Of a stretch of DNA of 64,000 nt, positions 29,669 to 32,009 are shown piece after piece. The stretch lies in the NCBI RefSeq assembly GCF_024508235.1, contig NZ_CP101943.1, positions 2,329,112 to 2,393,111 on the forward strand. Reading direction: 5' to 3'. The notes below the pieces were generated by a model. That model was given only the letters and a program-made list of their open reading frames with translations. It ran no database searches and had not been told where the DNA came from. The translations under genes and the position numbers were made by a program. The stretch's first letter is position 1; each line of letters starts with the position of its first letter. Source of the DNA: Halococcus qingdaonensis (GTDB lineage Archaea > Halobacteriota > Halobacteria > Halobacteriales > Halococcaceae).

Positions 29669-29748
29669 TAGCGACGACCGCGCCATCGATCGGTTCAGAG
29701 ATAGCAGCCCCGAGACGTTTCTCGCCGTCCGATACTGCTCGGACGCCG

Positions 29749-30111
29749 TCACTCTTCGAGGCAAACCCGGTCGGAGAACGGATCGTACGACGAATCGCTC
29801 GAAACGATCGGGTCGTCGCCCGAGCGCACGAGATGCAGCGCGTCGAGCGGCGTGAGTCCGTGTTCTTCGACGTAGCTCGCGGCCGCAAGAACCGTTTCGA
29901 CGTCGCCACGGACCTCGACGAGCCGACTCGCGTTGGCGACCACACGCTCGGTATTTCGGTCCTCGCGGTAGGCGACCAACAGCAGCTCGACCAGCGTGTA
30001 ATGGGATGTCCACAGTTCCTCGCGATGCTCGTCGTAGAGTTCCGCGGCGCGCTCGCCGAGCCAGTCGTCGTCCGTGATGAGCGCGAGCAGGAAATCGACC
30101 TCGACGTACAT
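29749..30111 (-). CDS. vapC: VapC-type PIN-domain toxin
   Basis: A 120-aa PIN ribonuclease. The acidic residues expected at the active site are visible: Asp in MYVEVDFLLALI, Glu in YTLVELLLVAY, Asp in LTPLDALHLV and Asp in IVSSDSSYD. VapC toxins cut tRNA or rRNA when released from VapB. The ATG at 30111 shares one base with the vapB stop; a GTG one codon earlier is also possible. It forms an operon with vapB. Confidence 0.83.
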   Translation of the reverse strand: MYVEVDFLLALITDDDWLGERAAELYDEHREELWTSHYTLVELLLVAYREDRNTERVVANASRLVEVRGDVETVLAAASYVEEHGLTPLDALHLVRSGDDPIVSSDSSYDPFSDRVCLEE

Positions 30112-30335
30112 CACGAGCCGGCCTCGTCGAGGGCCTCGTCGAGGGCACCCTGCTTCAGTTCCTCGGCCGATTCGTCCACGTCCCGAAATTCCTCGCGGAG
30201 CGCAGCGAGCGGATCCTCGGCGACGGGAACGAGCACGAGACGGTCGCCACGGTCCACGAGTTCGAACCGGTCGCCGAACTTCTCCCGGAGATGTTTCGGG
30301 AGGTAGATACGGCCGTCTTCTGCGTCAACGTCCAT
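30111..30335 (-). CDS. vapB: VapB-type AbrB-fold antitoxin
   Basis: A 74-aa protein. The N-terminal SpoVT/AbrB swapped-hairpin domain (GRIYLPKHLREKFGDRF, LVLVPV) binds DNA; the acidic C-terminal tail from about residue 42 should wrap the toxin. The ATG at 30335 is fixed by a TATA box 27 nt upstream; the longer open frame above it is AT-rich spacer. Confidence 0.8.
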   Translation of the reverse strand: MDVDAEDGRIYLPKHLREKFGDRFELVDRGDRLVLVPVAEDPLAALREEFRDVDESAEELKQGALDEALDEAGS

Positions 30336-30356
30336 AGACAGTATAGTGGATGAAAT

Positions 30357-30368
30357 CCCATAAATACT
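30357..30368 (-). promoter_or_regulatory. TATA box for vapBC
   Basis: AGTATTTATGGG on the minus strand is centred about 27 nt before the vapB start, indicating a leaderless transcript. Confidence 0.6.
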
Positions 30369-30451
30369 CCGAGAAGGAAGAATCGTTCCATGAATCTTAT
30401 TTCTCGCCATTATATTCGATATTGTGGTATGAATTGGTATCATCAGAAACA

Positions 30452-30470
30452 CGCTGGCTGAGATTTGAAC
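30452..30470. repeat. Attachment-site-like copy of the tRNA-Gly 3' end
   Basis: CGCTGGCTGAGATTTGAAC matches positions 31941-31959, the 3' end (acceptor and T arm) of tRNA-Gly, at 18 of 19 bases in the same orientation. This is the arrangement left by integration into a tRNA 3' end: the tRNA is kept whole at one end and the truncated copy marks the other. Confidence 0.6.
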
Positions 30471-30636
30471 CGGAATTAGACGGGACACTCACGTCGTTCA
30501 TTGTGCGCTCCACGCTGGTTCTGCTCCGGTACTACTTCCTGAGTTTCGTGTTGAACAGTGTACGTTGGATCGCCGAATACGGCGGGATGTTGTCGAGGCG
30601 ATGGTACAGCCGTCCATCCAGAGCGAGTGGAGACAA

Positions 30637-31869
30637 TCAGGAACTATCTGTTCCGTACCGTACCCTCATTTGTCTATGGAAGTCCTCAGAATACTGTTCC
30701 CAGGCAGTTCTGCCAATCTCTTCCGGCTCAACACTATCAGGGTGCTCTACTTCTTCCCCGACAATCCATCCGTATTCCATGTAGAATTGTAGGATCTGAG
30801 TAGTAGATTCGGTGGAAATTACTAAGACATCTGTTATATGCGTCGGAATGCCTTCCACTTCTTCCTCTCGGGGGAACGTCGCGTCTGCAAAGGGGAAGCC
30901 CCGACCCAGTTGCTCAACGTAGCCTTTCGTAAGGGGCTCTTTTGGAAGGCTCTCGATTACTCGATGGTTGGTGGAGCAGACCGGGCATTTATTTTCATCA
31001 AGATGGTCCCGCAAGTCGTGTTCGGCCCATTTCCTGCGCATTTCTGCATGATGAGCATCGATGAAATCCGATTCGAGGAACTGCTCTGGATCCTTCAAAA
31101 TTCGTTCTTCAACCTTCTCTCGTTCATGTTCAGACATGGATGCTTGCCCGACGAGCTCAATCCTGTTGTGGAGGAAATCACCCCATATCCCACCCACTTC
31201 TTGAGGCGGCTCGATCACACCTTCTTCTGCAACTTGTGTATTCGTGAGTCCACTTGGGTCAGGAGGAGAGATCGTCGAGAAAAACACTATCTTTGGAAAT
31301 TTGAAAAAGACATGAATGTTATCGTCCCCAAAGACGCTTGTTCCGTCAATATTCCTCTGCATGTATATCTCATAGTTGTCAGGGGCCTCGGGATCAGAGA
31401 TAGCCACGTCTATTTCCTCAGCAAAGAAGATATGATGAGTGGATGGATCCTCTGAGAGCGGCTTTTCATCGAGTAGAATCTGCCTCCAAGTTTCCACCCT
31501 CTTTTCAACTATGTCGATTCTCGGATGGTTAGATTCGTCCCACACTGCCATTTCCGAGACGAGCAACCTCCAAGAAATCGATAGTATGAAACGGTACATC
31601 CATTCACCGTACTCAAATCGTTTCGACTGGTCGCGGACGTGTGGATAGAACGCATGAGATGCGAATTTGCTCTCCCACTCGGAGAAGATCTCCTCACAGC
31701 CCCCACAGAGCATTTTCTCATGCATGTCCTGAATTCTTGTGTTTGGGTCTGTGAATTTTCTCAGAAACGGTGTTGGCCCACTCTTCTTCATCCATCGGAT
31801 TACAAACCGGGGGATAACATGGCTGTTCACCAACTTACGATCCCTGTGACAGAGTTTACATTCAGCCAT
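30637..31869 (-). CDS. Cys-rich HNH-like (treble-clef) protein of unknown function
   Basis: A 410-aa protein in the AT-rich island. The N terminus MAECKLCHRDRKLVNSHVIP has Cys4, Cys7 and His17, and a second pair CGGCEE is at Cys55/Cys58. This C-x2-C...SHVIP...C-x2-C layout resembles HNH_5-type treble-clef nucleases, but the conserved Asn/His after the second Cys pair is not evident. A third pair, KCPVC, is at Cys295/Cys298. The rest is a mixed region without a recognised domain. Codon usage is unlike the neighbours, which fits acquisition. I cannot assign a function; defence or DNA processing would be a guess. Confidence 0.6.
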   Translation of the reverse strand: MAECKLCHRDRKLVNSHVIPRFVIRWMKKSGPTPFLRKFTDPNTRIQDMHEKMLCGGCEEIFSEWESKFASHAFYPHVRDQSKRFEYGEWMYRFILSISWRLLVSEMAVWDESNHPRIDIVEKRVETWRQILLDEKPLSEDPSTHHIFFAEEIDVAISDPEAPDNYEIYMQRNIDGTSVFGDDNIHVFFKFPKIVFFSTISPPDPSGLTNTQVAEEGVIEPPQEVGGIWGDFLHNRIELVGQASMSEHEREKVEERILKDPEQFLESDFIDAHHAEMRRKWAEHDLRDHLDENKCPVCSTNHRVIESLPKEPLTKGYVEQLGRGFPFADATFPREEEVEGIPTHITDVLVISTESTTQILQFYMEYGWIVGEEVEHPDSVEPEEIGRTAWEQYSEDFHRQMRVRYGTDSS

Positions 31870-31938
31870 GACCGTTCAGAATTGGTGCCAAAACAAAATT
31901 GTTATTGCTAGTGTGTTAACGACAATATGAAACGGGAG

Positions 31939-32009
31939 TGCGCTGGCCGAGATTTGAACTCGGGTTGTGACCATGGCAAGGTCACGTGATACCACTACAC
32001 TACCAGCGC
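31939..32009 (-). tRNA. tRNA-Gly (GCC)
   Basis: A 71-nt cloverleaf: acceptor GCGCTGG/CCAGCGC with discriminator A, anticodon stem TGACC/GGTCA around loop TTGCCAT (anticodon GCC), and T arm CCGAG-TTCAAATC-TCGG. CCA is not encoded. A TATA-like GTTTTTACA (complement near 32037-32045) lies about 32 bp upstream. Its 3' end is one border of the AT-rich island. Confidence 0.95.

Follow-up and report, generated by a model that had tools for sequence, protein, structure and literature searches.

A small AT-rich island at tRNA-Gly(GCC) of Halococcus qingdaonensis: probable remnant of a larger integrated element

Archaeal elements mobilized by tyrosine recombinases target the 3′ end of tRNA genes, which is the end that archaeal integrases prefer (PMC8371274). 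Low-GC islands in Halorubrum ezzemoulense often lie near tRNA genes, and some of them carry restriction-modification genes (PMC11078007). A related kind of element, the cis-mobilizable element (CIME), has been described from bacterial ICEs and IMEs. CIMEs keep two attachment sites and have lost the genes for integration and transfer; they arise when an ICE or IME undergoes deletion, and are moved in cis once an element whose integrase matches has accreted to them (PMC5704250).

Here we analyse a 64,000-nucleotide stretch of the H. qingdaonensis genome (the window; NZ_CP101943.1, positions 2,329,112 to 2,393,111). It holds a 1.47-kb island in which both copies of a tRNA-derived attachment site are kept, integration and transfer genes are absent, and only one gene lies between the repeats. 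We consider it likely that the island is the remnant of a larger mobile element, integrated at tRNA-Gly(GCC) and collapsed by internal deletion.

The tRNA-Gly tail repeat and the island that it bounds

The features of the locus are as follows (window coordinates).

29749 to 30114, minus strand: vapC-like PIN toxin gene (PF01850), in the flank
30111 to 30335, minus strand: vapB-like antitoxin gene, in the flank and outside the repeat-bounded island; its MazE/AbrB-type match is just under the Pfam cut-off
30452 to 30470, minus strand: distal repeat, attR-like, putative displaced tRNA tail with one mismatch, unique in the genome
30471 to 31940, no strand: AT-rich island, foreign by composition and absent from nine congeners
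30505 to 30629, plus strand: decayed, frameshifted C-terminal end of a PhoU/AbrB-type gene, recognized by DNA identity to genes at two congener loci (L037 and L038)
30637 to 31869, minus strand: intact gene for a 410-aa protein with relatives in mobile elements, a candidate defence gene
31938 to 32009, minus strand: tRNA-Gly(GCC), intact, the presumed integration target (ARAGORN; one copy per genome of the genus)
31941 to 31959, minus strand: tRNA-side repeat, attL-like, from the T loop to the acceptor end, found by repeat match

The two repeat copies are identical at 18 of 19 positions, with one mismatch and on the same strand, as a first-pass annotation of the sequence had reported. If one 1-nt gap is allowed the match grows to 23 nt (to 30473), and spans the T arm and the 3′ strand of the acceptor. 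The distal copy lies downstream of the tRNA-Gly 3′ end, oriented as a displaced tail would be; a direct repeat of the tRNA 3′ end is thus present at both borders of the island, and tRNA-Gly is intact.

A chance origin of the 19-nt repeat was rejected on the basis of the expected number of matches, which is 0.02 per window when up to three mismatches are allowed, and of genome-wide counts. In the 2.70-Mb single-contig genome, the repeat pair are the only matches at two or fewer mismatches, and two further, unrelated matches to the 19-nt tail appear at three. The border is found nowhere else in the genome, which answers the concern that the match might recur beside other tRNAs, and the nine other genomes of the genus each contain the tail exactly once, in the tRNA itself. 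A shuffle test of the gapped alignment, in which 2 of 2000 shuffles attain the score of the repeat, is weaker because it allows gaps over a short AT-rich stretch, and the genome-wide counts are the better test.

The distal copy might instead be what is left of a tandem tRNA-Gly gene, the AT-rich DNA having arrived by an unrelated route. Some other haloarchaeal genomes (G137, G214, G341, G353 and G016) do have the tRNA-Gly tail two to four times at short intervals; however, there is a single copy in all genomes of the genus, and the match is limited to the 3′ 23 nt. Beside the distal copy, tRNA similarity beyond the T arm was not detectable, 1908 of 2000 shuffles scoring as well. We disfavour a decayed tandem gene on these two grounds and regard it as extremely unlikely; since further tRNA similarity is lacking, the distal copy reads, from its sequence, as a tail and not as a whole decayed tRNA.

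The island has a GC content of 48.4%, against 66.3% in the remainder of the window, and is the sole stretch of the window below 55% GC at a 1.4-kb scale. The 114 bp to the left of the distal repeat are likewise AT-rich (35%), and composition alone therefore does not fix the left border. The 410-aa gene (48% GC) is the only intact gene between the repeats. It has a GC3 of 0.52, compared to 0.77–0.86 in its neighbours, and 48% of its arginine codons are AGA or AGG, compared to 0–10%. The contrast in GC and the foreign codon use of one gene had both been seen in the first-pass annotation and are upheld by these figures. Between this gene and the distal repeat lies the PhoU/AbrB-type fragment, which has 70–72% DNA identity to intact genes that are 4–5 kb from tRNA-Gly in L037 and L038.

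The element had been described as about 1.5 kb long and free of a recombinase, and we indeed found no recombinase, integrase, integrase fragment or integrase pseudogene between the repeats. Across the whole assembly, from which plasmids may be missing, PF00589 matched only one protein, of 431 aa and with counterparts in relatives, which we take to be Xer-like. The genome has no match to PF16795, and an SSV-type integrase was ruled out on this basis. The integrase of the G086 element described below, used as a query against the assembly, found nothing.

The same site in other genomes of the genus

On the 5′ side of tRNA-Gly is a conserved RNA methyltransferase gene (PF02598), and another gene on this side is presumably that of ribosomal protein L3. 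On the 3′ side the order is AT-rich DNA, the distal tail copy, the vapBC-like pair, and a gene for a GHMP kinase, which we take to be thrB. Among the genomes compared, the island occurs at tRNA-Gly in this one only; the nine congeners have neither the island nor a second tail copy, and in 9 of 9 the tRNA-Gly flank is either uninterrupted, as integration would predict, or differently occupied. In L033 and L036, thrB begins approximately 110 bp beyond tRNA-Gly, and in L037 and L038 (genomes G069 and G085) the vapBC pair lies approximately 160–200 bp beyond it, which is the present arrangement minus the island. L035:1-1051 (G034:C7) contains an AT-rich, frameshifted gene for an AriA/OLD-like ATPase, approximately 20 bp from tRNA-Gly and running to the contig end. 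The flank is variable within the genus, and may be a recurrent landing site.

We also note that L034:1986-2190 (G133:C50), between tRNA-Thr(CGT) and tRNA-Gly, includes a stretch that resembles another truncated tRNA tail (GGATTTGAATCC).

The nearest relatives of the locus, L030 and L031, are approximately 98% identical to it on the tRNA and ribosomal-protein side. The difference from them covers window positions 29731–31937 and so exceeds the repeat-bounded island: vapBC and the island together occupy the position at which these relatives have a gene that we read as phosphodiesterase-like. This extent would be accounted for by homologous recombination at a variable locus, in which vapBC and the AT-rich DNA were exchanged for the phosphodiesterase-like gene between conserved flanks, the element having integrated in an older donor lineage and not here. 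It is also consistent with such an exchange that G069 and G085 share vapBC with this genome and also contain genes similar to the PhoU fragment. Recombination would explain how the block arrived in this strain, but not why a tRNA-tail repeat bounds its AT-rich part; it complements integration, and as an explanation of the island in its own right we judge it decidedly unlikely.

The 410-aa protein and the elements that carry its relatives

Matches to the 410-aa protein were found in 14 of the 392 genomes of the order (this genome included), some of them to the C-terminal domain only. G101 and G012 (66%) and G100 (64%) hold the closest relatives, the G101 locus corresponding to plasmid pHSR2-01 of Halanaeroarchaeum sulfurireducens. 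Bacterial relatives have the N-terminal two thirds of the protein. Residues 3–280 are matched by phrog_26326 (E 1.7e-73), whose profile is 303 long and does not include the C-terminal domain; one match, weak and partial, came from the phage collection, and a search of IMG/VR found no relatives, although PHROGs has a family. The C-terminal domain (Cx2C, HR) also occurs apart, within short separate proteins of other haloarchaea (L048, L049 and L050).

Residues C4, C7, H17, C55, C58 and E59 are invariant in the family, an arrangement of Cys, His and Glu in the N-terminal region that recalls, by analogy, HNH zinc domains. One family member has a weak match to HNH_5 (E 0.025), and the 410-aa protein itself a weak match to an HNH PHROG (E 0.05). 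The N-terminal 145 residues give a good model (pLDDT 84.5), for which fold comparisons with Foldseek and VIA-align returned low-scoring, mostly helical look-alikes, with no HNH chain among the matches. The full-length model is poor (pLDDT 57) and its fold search gave no usable match; a profile search of solved structures gave no credible match either.

Relatives of the gene are found beside a type I restriction system (G086), a Mrr-type nuclease and two ThsB-like TIR proteins (G169), a STAND-TPR ATPase (G119), and an Avs-like ATPase (G100). PADLOC models match only such neighbours elsewhere, and gave no match to the 410-aa protein. By association with the neighbours of its relatives only, the 410-aa gene is a possible defence gene.

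Two of the relatives are carried by full-size elements. G086:C20:198090-215675 (L043, L061) is a 17.5-kb element at tRNA-Thr(GGT), with its integrase next to the distal tail copy; the relative of the 410-aa gene is 2 kb from the tRNA, and type I restriction genes are present. In G100, the relative lies in an interval of approximately 51 kb that runs from tRNA-Val(CAC) to a copy of the tRNA-Val tail, and the integrase adjoins this copy. The repeats of the window, G086 and G100 all include the T-loop bases GTTCAAATC and continue as far as the end of the tRNA, that of the window stopping at most one or two bases short. The congeners G034, G085, G005 and G053 encode integrases related to that of G086, and G069 a more weakly related one; the G034 copy is beside a tRNA-Thr tail repeat, and those of G005 and G053 are beside tRNA-Thr(CGT). 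The location of these integrases at tRNA-Thr, together with the matching repeat borders, supports integration by a tyrosine recombinase at a tRNA 3′ end, followed here by loss of the integrase side. The earlier proposal of tRNA-directed integration is accordingly strengthened by tRNA-integrated elements that carry cargo relatives and have the same kind of border, with an integrase at the far end.

The protein family also occurs in other genomes as a lone low-GC gene amid host genes, including G099 and G116 (L045:10103-11293 and L046:8002-9195), two genomes of the same taxonomic family, where the lone relative has one in-frame stop. No second copy of the 1.5-kb unit was present in any genome searched. 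Other elements with the 19-nt border and an integrase elsewhere, which the first-pass annotation had suggested looking for, were sought and not found, nor was a parent element with tRNA-Gly(GCC) specificity. A pattern search for the tRNA tail found two tRNA-Gly-like tails in one viral contig and two places in one Natronorubrum plasmid, neither of which is established as a parent. The two tail copies of the viral contig (L077, IMGVR_UViG_3300010222_000002) are 166 bp apart.

Origin of the island and comparison with known systems

The lone occurrences raise the alternative that the island never was larger. It would then be comparable to a minimal satellite cassette: a small one-gene unit that brings its own attachment site and is integrated by an enzyme acting in trans, encoded by a plasmid, provirus or ICE in the same cell. 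Such a passenger would fit a single gene between repeats with no integrase fragment, the related integrases that circulate in the genus, and the case of G034, where an AT-rich gene for a defence-like ATPase stands alone at this tRNA-Gly. However, the G034 island is cut by the contig end and seen only in part, no repeated copy of the unit or helper integrase came to light in the genomes and assembly searched, the distal repeat has drifted, and the decayed gene end inside the island points to decay. We consider an integrase-free passenger unlikely. A wider form of the idea, in which the tRNA-Gly(GCC) of the genus receives single-gene cassettes that lack an integrase and are inserted and swapped by integrases of other elements acting in trans, and in which the 410-aa family is a new defence gene, seems to us highly improbable.

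The origin of a 1.5-kb element without a recombinase is best explained by the decay of a larger element, through a deletion that we infer; a novel type of small element is the poorer explanation. A tyrosine recombinase would have inserted the larger element into the stretch of tRNA-Gly(GCC) from the T loop to the 3′ end, which would have restored an intact tRNA at one border and displaced the original tail to 30452–30470. Internal deletion may then have spared only the 410-aa gene, the one nearest the tRNA, and removed all the rest, including the integrase expected beside the distal repeat. The remnant would no longer be able to move by itself, and the drift of the distal repeat suggests, from sequence comparison, that it is fixed; the 410-aa gene was perhaps retained as a defence gene.

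We favour this collapsed remnant because the larger elements of G086 and G100 carry cargo relatives and have at their far end the integrase, the part missing here; because the tail repeat is unique, the composition foreign, and the site free of the island in nine congeners, two of which have vapBC immediately next to the tRNA; and because a decayed gene end sits where the integrase would be expected. Three points count against it: the island holds no integrase fragment, so that the deletion is not directly seen; genes near tRNA-Gly in two congeners are similar to the PhoU fragment, so that part of the island is perhaps debris of local rearrangement; and an intact parent specific for tRNA-Gly(GCC) was not found.

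The locus offers a haloarchaeal example of a small integration scar with clear borders, whose history can be read from sites that lack the island and from full-size relatives of the cargo. It also draws attention to an uncharacterised family of haloarchaeal and some bacterial proteins whose genes, in mobile elements, repeatedly have defence genes as neighbours.

Among described systems, the closest to the island is the CIME, and a decayed element of this kind is the best reading. The likeness lies in the two kept attachment sites and the absent integration and transfer genes; descent from an ICE or IME and mobilization by accretion would be conjecture here. CIMEs were described from bacterial elements, whereas the island is archaeal and is only 1.5 kb long, with one gene. 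The restriction-carrying islands of H. ezzemoulense all have integrases, in contrast to the present one (PMC11078007). With archaeal tRNA-integrated elements the island shares a 3′-end target, a restored tRNA, and a displaced tail as the far border (PMC8371274); it differs in having no integrase and in its size, which is far below that of the elements in G086 and G100. The scar of a decayed element is a known kind of genomic scar.
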